Below the pieces are notes generated by a model, which did no database searches, was not told the DNA's origin, and worked only from the letters and a program-made list of their open reading frames with translations. The position numbers and the translations under genes were made by a program. 6,396 nucleotides of DNA from a bacterium (GTDB lineage: Bacteria > Coprothermobacterota > Coprothermobacteria > Coprothermobacterales > JAADFF01), in the NCBI GenBank assembly GCA_027063755.1, contig JAMORD010000111.1, positions 1-6,396 on the forward strand, written 5' to 3'. Positions 506 to 6,396 of this stretch are shown here, in pieces. Numbering within the stretch: position 1 is the first letter of the stretch; each line of letters opens with the position of its first letter.

Positions 506-1540
506 ATGGGAGACCTTACAGATAAGAAGGTTAGCAAGTTTATAGAATATGCCCGTAAGAGAAGAGGTAAGGATGTTGTTATGCGCCTTAACGAAGGGGC
601 TCTTGAGAAGACCAAGGTAATCTCAACAGGTGCTTTAAATCTTGATTTGGCCCTTGGCATAGGTGGTATTCCTCAGGGTAGGGTTATAGAGATATATGGT
701 AATGAGGGTAGTGGTAAAACAACACTGGCCCTTCACATAGGTGCAGAGGCCATGAAGAAAGGGCTTCCTGTTTTATACATTGATGCAGAAAATGCTCTTG
801 ATCCTCAGTATGCCATGACCATAGGCCTTGATACAGAAAGTGGTAACTTTATTCTCTCTCAGCCTGATGATGCGGAAACGGCTCTTGGACTTATTGAGGA
901 TTTTGCCAATGTTGTTGGTGAAGGGCTTGTAGTTGTAGACTCTGTTGCTGCACTGGTTCCCAGACAGGAACTGCAAGGTGATATTGGTGATAGCAATGTT
1001 GCCGTATTGGCAAGGCTAATGTCACAATCTCTTAGAAGACTTGCACGCACCATTAAAGAGCGTGAAACGGCCCTTGTGTTTCTCAACCAAATTCGTGAAA
1101 AGGTTGGTGTTATGTATGGTAATCCGGAGATAACACCAGGTGGTCGTGCTCTGAAATTCTATTCCTCTGTGCGTATGGAAGTTAGGAGGAAAGAGAGTAT
1201 TAAGCATGGCACCGATATTATCGGTCATGATATGCGGGTGAAGATTACAAAGAATAAACTATATCCCCCTTACAAAGAGGCTATTGTGCGTATTATCTAT
1301 GGTAAAGGTATAGATACCATTCATGCGCTGATGGAAGCTGCAATATGGACTGGTGTCATTGAGAGAAACGGTAGTTATTACAGCTTTGGTGGAGAGAGAT
1401 TGGCCCAGGGCAAAGAGAGCTTGAGAAAAGTGCTTATGGCCGAGAAGACCCTTCGTGAAAAGATTCGTGAGGCTGTGCTTGCCACAGCGGCTGCTTCCCA
1501 GGGTCAGCAAGAACAGAGTGAATCCTCCAATGCGTCGTAG
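506..1540 (+). CDS. recA: Recombinase RecA (divergent)
   Basis: This 344-residue protein has the normal RecA length. RecA forms ATP-dependent filaments on single-stranded DNA for strand exchange, recombinational repair and SOS co-protease activity. The family is clear from ISTGALNLDLALGIGGIP (39-56), the Walker A GNEGSGKTT (65-73), DAENALDPQYA (93-103) with the catalytic Glu at 95, the Walker B-type strand VVVDSVAALVP, GDSN at the L1 loop (D162, S163, N164), the L2 segment NQIREKVGVMYGNPE followed by GGRALKFYSSVR, and KNKLYPPYKEA in the C-terminal part. The tail is Q/S-rich rather than strongly acidic. Deviations from the usual consensus are GNEGSGKTT for GPESSGKTT, DAEN for DAEH and GDSN for GDSH. 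The ATG at 506 is set by GGAGGTG 6 nt upstream. The gene has its own promoter-like element and overlaps recX by 11 nt. Identity as RecA is near certain; full activity is likely but not provable from sequence. Confidence 0.97.
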   Translation: MGDLTDKKVSKFIEYARKRRGKDVVMRLNEGALEKTKVISTGALNLDLALGIGGIPQGRVIEIYGNEGSGKTTLALHIGAEAMKKGLPVLYIDAENALDPQYAMTIGLDTESGNFILSQPDDAETALGLIEDFANVVGEGLVVVDSVAALVPRQELQGDIGDSNVAVLARLMSQSLRRLARTIKERETALVFLNQIREKVGVMYGNPEITPGGRALKFYSSVRMEVRRKESIKHGTDIIGHDMRVKITKNKLYPPYKEAIVRIIYGKGIDTIHALMEAAIWTGVIERNGSYYSFGGERLAQGKESLRKVLMAEKTLREKIREAVLATAAASQGQQEQSESSNAS

Positions 1541-1997
1541 GAGAAAACCATGTGATCCCAACGATAAAGAGTATATGCTGAGATATGTGAAAGGCCTTCT
1601 GCAAAGAAGGCCTTATCCTATATATGAGTTGAAAAAACGGCTTCTTATGAAGGGATGTAATCCCGATATTGTAGAAGAAGTGATGGTAAAATTAAAAGAA
1701 GTTGTTTCAGAAAAACTTCTTAATGAGGAGTTTTTAGAGGCCTTGTATATGGGAGCATGTAGAAAGGGTAAAGGTCCTATGTGGTTTCGTCAAAGAGCAC
1801 TAATGTCTGGTGTGCCCGAAGACATGATAAACTCGTATATAGATAGTGTCAATTGGAAGGATTCGTTGAGAGTCTGTGTGGATAAGGCAAAGAACAAATA
1901 TGCTGATGATCTTTATAAAATAAAAGTTTTTTTGTACAGAAATGGCTTTAATGAATCCTTTTGGGACATGGCTATGGAAATGCTAAAGGAGGGATAA
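1530..1997 (+). CDS. recX: Regulatory protein RecX
   Basis: From the ATG at 1530 this is a 155-residue basic protein of RecX type, which binds RecA and modulates its filament extension and ATPase. It shows the repeated three-helix modules of the family: module 1 about residues 15-55 (LLQRRPYPIYELKKRLLMKGC), module 2 about 67-112 (LLNEEFLEALYMGACRKGKGP...), and module 3 about 115-155. The frame is open further upstream, to an ATG at 1455, but that would run deep into recA and add sequence foreign to the family, so I prefer 1530, which overlaps the recA stop (1538-1540) by 11 nt. This start has no convincing Shine-Dalgarno sequence (only GAGTG at 1516-1520); GTG 1518 and ATG 1575 are alternatives. 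Expression probably depends on coupling to recA. A start-stop unit at 1539-1555 and a perfect hairpin at 1591-1614 lie in its first 85 nt. Confidence 0.88.
   Translation: MRRRRKPCDPNDKEYMLRYVKGLLQRRPYPIYELKKRLLMKGCNPDIVEEVMVKLKEVVSEKLLNEEFLEALYMGACRKGKGPMWFRQRALMSGVPEDMINSYIDSVNWKDSLRVCVDKAKNKYADDLYKIKVFLYRNGFNESFWDMAMEMLKEG
1539..1555 (+). promoter_or_regulatory. Shine-Dalgarno plus ATG-TGA start-stop unit inside recX
   Basis: AGGAG at 1539-1543 is followed after 6 nt by ATG at 1550 and immediately by TGA (1553-1555). This ATG is in a different frame from recX (it falls in the recA frame), so it would encode a single Met. A ribosome finishing recA at 1538-1540 sits directly on this site. 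The arrangement is seen in the sequence; a role in capturing ribosomes and lowering recX translation is inference. Confidence 0.4.
1591..1614 (+). repeat. Perfect 9-bp inverted repeat (stem-loop) in early recX
   Basis: AAGGCCTTC (1591-1599) and GAAGGCCTT (1606-1614) are exact reverse complements separated by the 6-nt loop TGCAAA. Each arm also contains the palindrome AAGGCCTT. The hairpin starts 61 nt after the recX ATG and encodes about residues 21-28. It is followed by ATCCTATAT rather than a T tract, so it is not a standard intrinsic terminator. It could be an RNA structure that tunes recX translation or transcript processing. Confidence 0.55.
1711..1735 (+). repeat. AT-rich 11-bp stem-loop inside recX
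   Basis: The arm AAAAACTTCTT (1711-1721) pairs with GAGGAGTTTTT (1725-1735) across a 3-nt loop AAT. There are two T-G wobbles and no mismatches. The 3' arm ends in five T's, which gives a weak resemblance to a terminator. It lies wholly within coding sequence and is AT-rich, so chance formation is quite possible. Confidence 0.3.
1985..1993 (+). promoter_or_regulatory. Ribosome binding site supporting the GTG start of rny
   Basis: AAAGGAGGG lies at the end of recX, 7 nt before the GTG at 2001. It decides the rny start: the next in-frame Met is at residue 9, inside the membrane segment. Confidence 0.8.
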
Positions 1998-3644: not shown

Positions 3645-4411
3645 GAATCTTGTTTTTTGGTGATGTTATAGGGGCACCGGGCAGAAAAGTTCTTAGAGAT
3701 GCTATAGAATATCTTGGCCGTGATGCCGATGTTATTATTGCCAATGGGGAAAATGCCGCCCATGGTTATGGACTAACACCTAAGGTTGTTGAGGAGATAC
3801 TTGATGCTGGTGTAGACATTATTACCACAGGGGGGCATTTCTACGATCGCAAGGAATGGAAAGAGGTCTTGGATCACTATCCACAGGTGGTTGTGCCGGC
3901 AAACTATCCCGGACGGTTTCATAGGGGATATTACATATCCAGCAAGGGGATAGCTGTAATGAATATTCACGGTCAGATATTCGTCAATATCATTTTCCAC
4001 CATCCGTTTCATACCGCTGATAAGGTTATACGGCAGATAAGAGAAGAGGCCGGTGATATTCCTATACTGTTTGATTTTCACGGTGAGGCAACATCTGAAA
4101 AGATGGCCATGGCCTGGTATGTTGATGGTAGAGTATCGGCTGTTGTGGGTACCCATACCCATGTACCTACAGCCGATGAACGAATATTACCCGGAGGTAC
4201 AGGATATATAACCGATGTAGGTATGTGTGGCTGTATAGATACCGTTATTGGTATGGATAAAGATGCGGCCGTTAAAAGGTTTACAACAGGTATACCCGAG
4301 CGTATAGAACCACCAAAGAAATGCGAAAATCTTCGTGCATATGGTGTTTTTATAGAAATCAATGAAGAGGGAAAAGCAACCTCTATGAGGAGGGTAGTGT
4401 ATGAAGGATAA
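3641..4411 (+). CDS. ymdB: YmdB-type metallophosphoesterase (TIGR00282 family)
   Basis: This is a 256-residue calcineurin-like phosphoesterase of the family of B. subtilis YmdB (unrelated to E. coli YmdB). B. subtilis YmdB hydrolyses 2',3'-cyclic nucleotides and affects biofilm/motility decisions, and the gene commonly follows rny. Ligand positions visible are D8 (FFGDVIGAPGR), E37 and N38 (ANGENAAHG), H147 (DFHGEATSEK), H172 and H174 (GTHTHVPTADERILP), followed by the conserved TDVGMCG. The exception is TTGGHFYDRKEW at 62-73: the family has GNH, so the metal-bridging Asn is replaced by Gly65, while the following His66 is kept. The protein has the normal family length and no signal peptide. 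Its ATG overlaps the rny TGA by 4 nt, with GGTGG at 3626-3630 as a distant ribosome binding site, so translation is probably coupled to rny. Family certain; activity uncertain because of Gly65. Confidence 0.93.
   Translation: MRILFFGDVIGAPGRKVLRDAIEYLGRDADVIIANGENAAHGYGLTPKVVEEILDAGVDIITTGGHFYDRKEWKEVLDHYPQVVVPANYPGRFHRGYYISSKGIAVMNIHGQIFVNIIFHHPFHTADKVIRQIREEAGDIPILFDFHGEATSEKMAMAWYVDGRVSAVVGTHTHVPTADERILPGGTGYITDVGMCGCIDTVIGMDKDAAVKRFTTGIPERIEPPKKCENLRAYGVFIEINEEGKATSMRRVVYEG
4387..4394 (+). promoter_or_regulatory. Ribosome binding site of miaB
   Basis: GAGGAGGG, within the end of the ymdB coding region, lies 6 nt before the ATG at 4401 and fixes the miaB start. That start overlaps the ymdB stop by 11 nt. 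Confidence 0.8.
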
Positions 4412-5714
4412 CTTTACCTTTTATGTCCAGACATACGGGTGTCAAATGAATAAAAACGATAGCGAAATGGTTGCGGGTAACCTTCGCCTTATGGGAGGCC
4501 GTATGGTTGCCGATATGAAAGATGCCGATGTGGTGCTTATTAATACATGCTCTGTTAGGCAACATGCTGAAGATAGAGCACAGGGAACCATTGGTGCTCT
4601 AAAGAAATATGTTAGGGAAAAAGGTACAAAGGTTATTGTTATGGGCTGTATGGCCGAAAATATGGGTCAGAAACTTATGGAAAAGTTCCCTTATCTTCTT
4701 GCCGTTGTTGGTCCTAATTACCTTGAGTTTATTCCCGAGATCATTAAGGAAAACAAAAAGGGAGTATATGTGGGGGATAGAGATATCACATTTGAGCTTT
4801 ATAAAAACGCCGTAAGGTTTGAGTCCCACAGGGCATATATCACTATTGTTAAGGGTTGTGAAAACTTCTGCACATACTGCATTGTGCCTTATACAAGAGG
4901 TCATATACAGAGCAGACGTATGGGAGATATTATCAGAGAGGTCAAAATGGCCGTAGAGGCTGGTGCCAAAGAGATACATCTACTTGGTCAGAATGTCAAT
5001 GAGTGGGGTAAAGAGTGGGGTTATAAAGACCCCAGCTTTGGCGATCTCCTGAGAGAAGTTTCAAAAGTTGAGGGTATAGGGATTATTAGGTACACAACCC
5101 CACATCCCAAATACTTTGGTAAAGATCTTGTAGATACCATTGTTGAATTACCTAAGGTGACAAGGTATTTTCACCTTCCCATACAGGCTGGTGATAACGA
5201 GGTTCTCAGGCTCATGAATCGTGGTTATACAGTAGAGGAATTTATGGATCTTATAGACTATATCAAAGAAAAGGCTGCAGATAGATATGCCATAGGCACC
5301 GATGTTATTGTGGGTTTTCCCGGCGAGACACCAGAAGCCTTTGAGAACACACTAAAAGTGTTTGAAAGGATACGCTTTGATGTAGCCTATATAGCCATGT
5401 ATTCTCCTCGTCCACACACGGCAGCAGCTTTGCTGACAGATAAGTTTGTCCCTGAAGAGGAAAAAAAGAGGCGCTTTGATGCACTGTATGCCCTTCAGGA
5501 AAAGATTGCATGGGAGAAGAATCAGCAATATGTGGGTACTATAGATAGGGTCATGGTAGATAACTATGACGAATCTAAAGGTGCTTATATAGGGCGTGAT
5601 GATATCAATAAGACCGTAGTATTCACAGCCCGAGAAGGCTATAAGCCTGGTGATATAGTTGATGTCAAGATAGAAAAGGCAAAATCTTGGGTCTTATATG
5701 GAAGAGAAATATAG
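4401..5714 (+). CDS. miaB: tRNA-2-methylthio-N6-dimethylallyladenosine synthase MiaB
   Basis: MiaB is a radical-SAM methylthiotransferase that adds the 2-methylthio group to i6A at position 37 of tRNAs reading UNN codons. At 437 residues it has the usual length without the N-terminal extension seen in many Firmicutes. Domains in order: N-terminal MTTase domain with three cluster cysteines C14 (YGCQMN), C50 (INTCSVR) and C83 (MGCMAE); radical-SAM domain with CENFCTYC giving C153, C157 and C160; LLGQNVNEWG; a glycine-rich GTDVIVGFPGET; and a C-terminal TRAM domain (about 373-437) for RNA binding. MiaB rather than RimO or MtaB is supported by YGCQMN, NTCSVR and the LLGQNVN motif. Oddities are HLPIQAGD where MiaB usually has PVQSGS, YTTPHP for TTSHP, and SPRPHT for SPRPGT. 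The adjacent overlapping miaA supplies its substrate modification. Confidence 0.95.
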   Translation: MKDNFTFYVQTYGCQMNKNDSEMVAGNLRLMGGRMVADMKDADVVLINTCSVRQHAEDRAQGTIGALKKYVREKGTKVIVMGCMAENMGQKLMEKFPYLLAVVGPNYLEFIPEIIKENKKGVYVGDRDITFELYKNAVRFESHRAYITIVKGCENFCTYCIVPYTRGHIQSRRMGDIIREVKMAVEAGAKEIHLLGQNVNEWGKEWGYKDPSFGDLLREVSKVEGIGIIRYTTPHPKYFGKDLVDTIVELPKVTRYFHLPIQAGDNEVLRLMNRGYTVEEFMDLIDYIKEKAADRYAIGTDVIVGFPGETPEAFENTLKVFERIRFDVAYIAMYSPRPHTAAALLTDKFVPEEEKKRRFDALYALQEKIAWEKNQQYVGTIDRVMVDNYDESKGAYIGRDDINKTVVFTAREGYKPGDIVDVKIEKAKSWVLYGREI

Positions 5715-6396
5715 AGGGAAAAGGAAGAAACTGGCCATTAGTATAGTAGGTCTTACCGCTTCAGGTAAGACCTCTTTTCTACATAATGTTCTTGATTTTC
5801 TTGTAGCAGAAGGTGTGTCATTCATTACCATTTCCGTAGACAGTGGTGCCGTTTATAAATACCTTGACATTGGCACGGCCAAGCCCACACCAGAAGAGAT
5901 AGAAAAATACAATTATCGTCTTGTCAATGTTGTTTCTCCCTGTGAGAGATATTCTTTGGCGAGGTTTATCAAAGATACCGATGAGGTTTTGAGACATGCA
6001 GATACCGATGTCGTGTTTATTATTGGAGGTACACCTTTGTATTTTTATACCCTTGTTGGAGAAAGTGGTTATGTACCTGTGCAACCAGATAGTGCTATAA
6101 GAAATCATTTAAGACAGATTGCAAATGAGCGTGGCAGTAGGTACATTTACAATCTTATGAAGGCTCTTGATCCTATATCTGCTGAGAAGATACATCCCAA
6201 TGATGTCAAACGCATTATTCGCACCATAGAAATTAATCTTTCTACGGGTAAGATGCGAACATATGCTACAGAATATTACACTTATTTTCAGATGCACTTT
6301 TCCGAGCGAAGGTATATTTTGCTTCCACCTCCGGATATTCTTAGAGAACGCATTTATAAAAGAACGCATATGATGTTTCAGATGGGATTTGTTGAA
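5698..6396 (+). CDS. miaA: tRNA dimethylallyltransferase MiaA, 3'-truncated
   Basis: MiaA transfers a dimethylallyl group to N6 of A37 in tRNA, the step before MiaB. The frame is open from the ATG at 5698 to the window edge (233 codons of about 300), so the C-terminal part is missing. Motifs: P-loop GLTASGKT (18-25; usual GPTASGKT), DSGAVYKYLDIGTAKPTPEE from D48, IIGGTPLYFYTL, and IHPNDVKRIIRTIEINLSTGK with H166-P167-N168-D169. The usual HHL/HRL motif is YRL here. The start overlaps the miaB stop by 17 nt and lacks a Shine-Dalgarno sequence. The first 11 residues (MEEKYRGKRKK) form a charged extension. An alternative is a CTG at 5731 with AAGGA at 5721-5725, which would begin nearer the family's normal N-terminus. 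A perfect hairpin with a T-rich tail overlaps the P-loop codons. Family assignment is secure. Confidence 0.94.
   Translation, partial: MEEKYRGKRKKLAISIVGLTASGKTSFLHNVLDFLVAEGVSFITISVDSGAVYKYLDIGTAKPTPEEIEKYNYRLVNVVSPCERYSLARFIKDTDEVLRHADTDVVFIIGGTPLYFYTLVGESGYVPVQPDSAIRNHLRQIANERGSRYIYNLMKALDPISAEKIHPNDVKRIIRTIEINLSTGKMRTYATEYYTYFQMHFSERRYILLPPPDILRERIYKRTHMMFQMGFVE
5748..5780 (+). terminator. Terminator-like stem-loop within miaA (attenuator candidate)
   Basis: AGGTCTTACC (5748-5757) and GGTAAGACCT (5764-5773) form a perfect 10-bp stem with the 6-nt loop GCTTCA, followed by the T-rich tract CTTTTCT (5774-5780). This has the form of an intrinsic terminator, of medium strength because the stem is only half G+C and the T tract is interrupted. 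It begins 50 nt inside miaA and covers the P-loop codons, so it cannot be the end of the transcription unit. Translating ribosomes would disrupt it; untranslated RNA could fold and stop polymerase. Confidence 0.45.

Follow-up and report, generated by a model that had tools for sequence, protein, structure and literature searches.

The window covers all 6,396 bp of contig C111, which belongs to a draft genome of 1.5 Mb, and carries the genes thpR-recA-recX-rny-ymdB-miaB-miaA in this order on a single strand. The last of them, miaA (5698..6396, plus strand; tRNA dimethylallyltransferase, PF01715), is truncated by the contig end. Its ATG at 5698 sits within the upstream gene miaB (4401..5714, plus strand; stop codon at 5712-5714), so that the two genes overlap by 17 nt, and the stretch 5' of this ATG (GGCAAAATCTTGGGTCTTAT) contains no clear Shine-Dalgarno sequence. 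A hairpin starts 50 nt after the ATG and covers the P-loop codons of MiaA, GLTASGKT. It is composed of a 5' arm at 5748..5757 (AGGTCTTACC), a 6-nt loop at 5758..5763 (GCTTCA) and a 3' arm at 5764..5773 (GGTAAGACCT), all on the plus strand, and the arms are 100% complementary, giving 10 bp with 5 G-C pairs. A T-rich tail (CTTTTCTACA) occupies positions 5774..5783 of the same strand and would act as the termination zone; with 5 T in 8 it is imperfect but resembles the tails of the gene-end terminators of this genome (mean 5.3). An earlier note made from the letters of the window had described a perfect 10-bp stem with a 6-nt loop and a T-rich tail 50 nt into miaA, as well as a miaA start that overlaps the miaB stop without a Shine-Dalgarno sequence, and both descriptions are exact.

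The minimum free energy (MFE) of the miaA hairpin is -16.2 kcal/mol (z = -6.4), and none of the shuffled sequences was equally good. It is the strongest among the compact hairpins of the window and the top-ranked terminator-like match on the sense strand. It combines a stable, G+C-containing stem-loop with a U-rich tract directly after it on the same strand, as intrinsic terminators do. Folding of this one sequence in segments of 101 and 141 nt kept the hairpin in both the MFE and the centroid structures, with no clear competing structure. A search of the window with the Rfam covariance models gave no match up to E = 1, and no leader-type short ORF with regulatory codons was found; the hairpin lies within the full-length miaA gene itself. 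Synonymous-codon shuffles of the sister genome put the chance expectation of such a stem inside genes at ~0.05 per 6.4 kb. The miaA hairpin is not a chance structure.

The window contains one more perfect 10-bp stem of the same class, at 1591..1614 (plus strand; 4-nt loop, -15.9). This second hairpin is located 61 nt into recX (1530..1997, plus strand) and about 50 nt past the stop codon of recA (506..1540, plus strand). Both perfect stems are far stronger than the next compact hairpin of the window (-11.7). In the sister genome (G001), an 8-bp core of the recX hairpin, a G-U pair and the downstream TTATCCTATAT are kept while the flanks differ. Because RecX inhibits RecA, it would be biologically sensible for expression to step down from recA to recX.

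Conservation of the miaA hairpin

In this isolated lineage two genomes represent the genus, that of the window (G000) and G001, a metagenome-assembled sister genome; a contig search for further genus members returned the same sister genome only. The whole operon is 84.6% identical between the two. The miaA hairpin and its tail, including both arms, are letter-identical in G001 and fall into a run of 17 consecutive identical codons (5737-5787). Because identical-codon runs of 16-20 also occur elsewhere in the operon (recX, rny), the identity of the miaA hairpin alone is suggestive only, and no covariation is possible at this stem since the two stems are identical. Control hairpins in the same operon had 11/22 third positions changed and none of them stayed intact. 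All other stems of at least 7 bp in the operon genes of G001 are broken in the genome of the window, among them one of 10 bp in the late part of ymdB and one of 9 bp that lies 126 nt into miaA and lacks a T tail. The hairpin is absent from more distant MiaA genes, whose P-loop has Pro.

A class of early in-gene hairpins in the sister genome

The sampled part of G001 comprised 792 kb of about 1.4 Mb (~57%), with gene starts called by a simple ORF caller. At least 20 hairpins similar to that of miaA were found 27-241 nt inside genes. In a shuffle test on 563 kb, in which the shuffles preserve protein and codon usage, 23 perfect stems (at least 10 bp, loop 3-8) were observed within genes compared to 4.0 +/- 2.3 in the shuffles; the observed stems cluster at gene heads and their T-rich tails are mainly on the sense strand. 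When terminator-like stems were defined by at least 9 bp, at least 4 G/C and at least 4 T of 8 (792 kb, 722 genes), 16 lay on the sense strand between nt 20 and 180 of a gene, compared to a single one in the other 566 kb of coding sequence (p = 7e-12), and 4 early ones were antisense. As a control, 79 loci from diverse bacteria yielded 1 terminator-like case per 974 genes. In G008, from another family of the phylum, 0 class members were found in a small sample of 124 genes.

The hosts include pth, ruvC, hutH, the obg and meaB GTPase genes, a NUDIX gene and radical-SAM genes. Most class hairpins fall within Pfam domains, for example Pth, RuvC, Obg, NUDIX and HutH, and are therefore coding. The idea that apparently internal hairpins result from mis-called ORF starts was rejected on this ground, being true for two while most others are inside Pfam domains; the hairpins at L046:7564 and L051:270, which are gene-end terminators in an over-extended ORF, were excluded from the conservation count. 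Unlike miaA, many other members have SD-like sequences. For each of the 22 curated members, the host is preceded at a distance of at most 30 nt by a gene on the same strand (background 58%, p = 6e-6), a further operon gene follows the host in 18 of the 22, and the genes that open an operon contained no curated member. The class lies in the first ~60 codons of mid-operon genes, where it probably limits downstream operon transcription. Conserved early hairpins of 12-13 bp without T tail were also seen in an HDOD gene and in thyX (L054:5145-5996, L215:15532-16266), so not every class member need be a terminator.

Stems are conserved at synonymous sites

The earlier note had proposed that relatives be compared at synonymous positions, and third codon positions were compared between G001 and G000 for the 17 members with orthologues. 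Twelve of the 17 stems match letter for letter, and no more than one change is seen in 14. Only 7 of 122 third positions changed in stems (6%) and 6 of 55 in T tails, compared to 13 of 33 in loops (39%) and 274 of 744 in flanks (31-41%; stem versus flank p = 4e-14). The hutH loop turned from ttatcag to aacttta with the stem unaltered, and the ruvC stem shows a double compensatory change from G-C to A-T. The NUDIX and recN hairpins are not kept in G000. Judged by these substitutions, the stems are under selection beyond coding need, at synonymous sites.

A few members are also present in Coprothermobacter, with compensatory changes. The hairpin of Coprothermobacter pyrH, AAGCGGAGAAAA..TTTTCTCCGCTT-CTTATTT, lies about 70 nt inside the gene (L195:12427-12456; also L252, L248, L249, L255), and its stem is preserved in both G004 and G003, at 73-74% identity; in G003 an outer pair is changed from A-T to G-C. 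In a Coprothermobacter radical-SAM gene, a stem pair is changed from G-C to A-T in G004.

Comparison with gene-end terminators

Class members are like the gene-end intrinsic terminators of the same genome in stem length, energy, T content and orientation; in G001 the respective values are 10.8 and 10.6 bp, -19.5 and -19.4 kcal/mol, and 5.1 and 5.3 T. They differ in that they lie inside the downstream coding sequence, that their loops are mostly of 6 rather than 4 nt, and that the host protein can be made only if the terminator is read through. The gene-end terminators of the genus (L033-L059 and other G001 loci) are found at a median of 18 nt from the stop codon, with 41% closer than 12 nt and 18% overlapping the stop, whereas those of Coprothermobacter have a median of 31 nt and 0/11 are closer than 12 nt. 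Close stop-to-terminator spacing is taken to indicate uncoupled transcription, and the contrast hints that the coupling of transcription to translation differs between members of one order. Hairpins as a substitute for missing Rho were ruled out, as Rho is present in both G000 (C40:25186-25365) and G001 (C62:34480-34632). The Rho of the genus scores 54 bits against the Pfam model of the Rho RNA-binding domain, with the first positions unmatched, and that of relatives 69-88 bits.

Discussion

We propose, with a probability of roughly 0.6, that the miaA hairpin is an intrinsic (Rho-independent) terminator that serves as an operon-internal attenuator within the first codons of the downstream gene. 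RNA polymerase coming from the upstream genes, here recA to miaB, would meet the hairpin and T tract at 5748-5783, where a fraction of the complexes would be released while the others continue into miaA and the following genes. miaA and later genes would thereby be lowered relative to the upstream genes, and the same device would operate at the recA/recX junction and at tens of others in the genus. Overlapping genes offer no intergenic space for a terminator, which would explain its place within the opening codons of the next gene. On contig C92 of G001 (L033-L037), miaA is followed by tightly packed YnbB-like, trpS-like, cmk-like and ispH-like genes, named from their translations. Termination itself, its frequency and what sets readthrough are inferred. 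A counterpoint is that full efficiency without regulation would nearly silence essential downstream genes.

The hairpin could instead be a side effect of protein coding, if the repeat G-x-T...G-K-T of the P-loop favours self-complementary codons and the conservation is a protein effect. Although pairing across the motif is possible between Gly and Thr codons, and the runs of identical codons in recX and rny would fit, the 9-bp core of the miaA hairpin needs six exact codons, with a probability of ~0.002 given the MiaA protein and codon usage. Moreover, the P-loop (5749-5772) has Leu in place of the near-universal Pro only in the two species with the hairpin, and 0/92 other homologues have Leu (95 surveyed). 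The same pattern at synonymous sites in about 20 unrelated proteins and the class-wide statistics contradict this reading, which we consider extremely improbable; chance or a P-loop coding artefact was ruled out by the shuffles, the third-position statistics and the codon probability. Since Pro codons are unable to pair with the Lys codon, the MiaA protein may even have bent to the RNA, in which case this single P-loop would have been shaped by the hairpin. The stem might also be an RNA processing or stability element that blocks exonucleases or guides cleavage, causing segment-specific mRNA decay and no termination. Hairpin conservation alone is compatible with such a role, as are the HDOD and thyX hairpins without T tail, but it is quite unlikely for the class given that T tails are conserved and far commoner on the sense than on the antisense strand, and that class members match gene-end terminators.

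A further possibility concerns the control of such a terminator by ribosomes. The earlier note envisaged a translation-coupled attenuator, and a terminator-like attenuator between miaB and miaA is well supported by the conservation at synonymous sites, a T tail conserved on the sense strand alone, the operon-internal position of the class and a strength equal to that of gene-end terminators. The coupling, under which the terminator would be active only if the gene head is untranslated and a ribosome coming in from the upstream, overlapping gene would melt the hairpin, found less backing. Some relief seems needed because full-length host transcripts must pass a terminator as strong as gene-end ones, with operon genes behind it in 18 of 22 hosts. 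In engineered E. coli systems, an in-frame terminator is abolished or impaired when it is translated (PMC4879669, the TOR reporter study, which cites Wright and Hayward); a surveillance role of ORF terminators has also been proposed (PMC4824070). The distance of Coprothermobacter gene-end terminators from stop codons is likewise expected with coupling. On the other hand, E. coli terminators placed within 100 nt of an ORF start retain almost full efficiency despite translation (PMC4824070; summarised in PMC7858274), the close or overlapping gene-end terminators of the genus suggest that ribosomes do not shadow RNA polymerase, and a general checkpoint would be expected also in operon first genes, where curated members are missing. 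We therefore regard gating as a rather doubtful general rule for the class; for the miaA hairpin it is possible but unproven. A bolder version, in which the order (Coprothermobacter and relatives) uses full-strength early-codon terminators as translation checkpoints that bend protein motifs such as the MiaA P-loop, appears unlikely. If true, transcription of the remaining operon would depend on translation of each host gene, which would be a hairpin-based counterpart of Rho polarity.

The attenuator reading has parallels in known systems. The ioTTS of Methanococcus maripaludis (PMC10450193) have the same proposed role, a step-down of distal operon genes, but these are intergenic sites of an archaeon that use U-tracts and aCPSF1, in contrast to the hairpin terminators within coding sequence described here. 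In-ORF terminators with measured position effects are likewise described by Wright and Hayward, in PMC4879669 and in PMC4824070 (tR2); the in-frame terminator studies used engineered constructs, whereas the present set is natural, conserved and genome-wide. For E. coli and Borrelia, PMC7815308 and PMC10319736 also report premature termination with 3' ends inside ORFs. An earlier description of a conserved set of early-ORF terminators was not found among the open-access papers searched, which does not prove its absence.

Predicted in-gene terminators are usually dismissed as chance, whereas those of this genus are conserved, strand-specific, operon-internal and selected at synonymous sites. They offer a testable system for the setting of operon gene ratios without intergenic space and for ribosome control of in-gene intrinsic termination, and the conserved pyrH hairpin provides a cultured test organism, Coprothermobacter. 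The class is also a warning that termination signals can reside in synonymous sites at gene starts.
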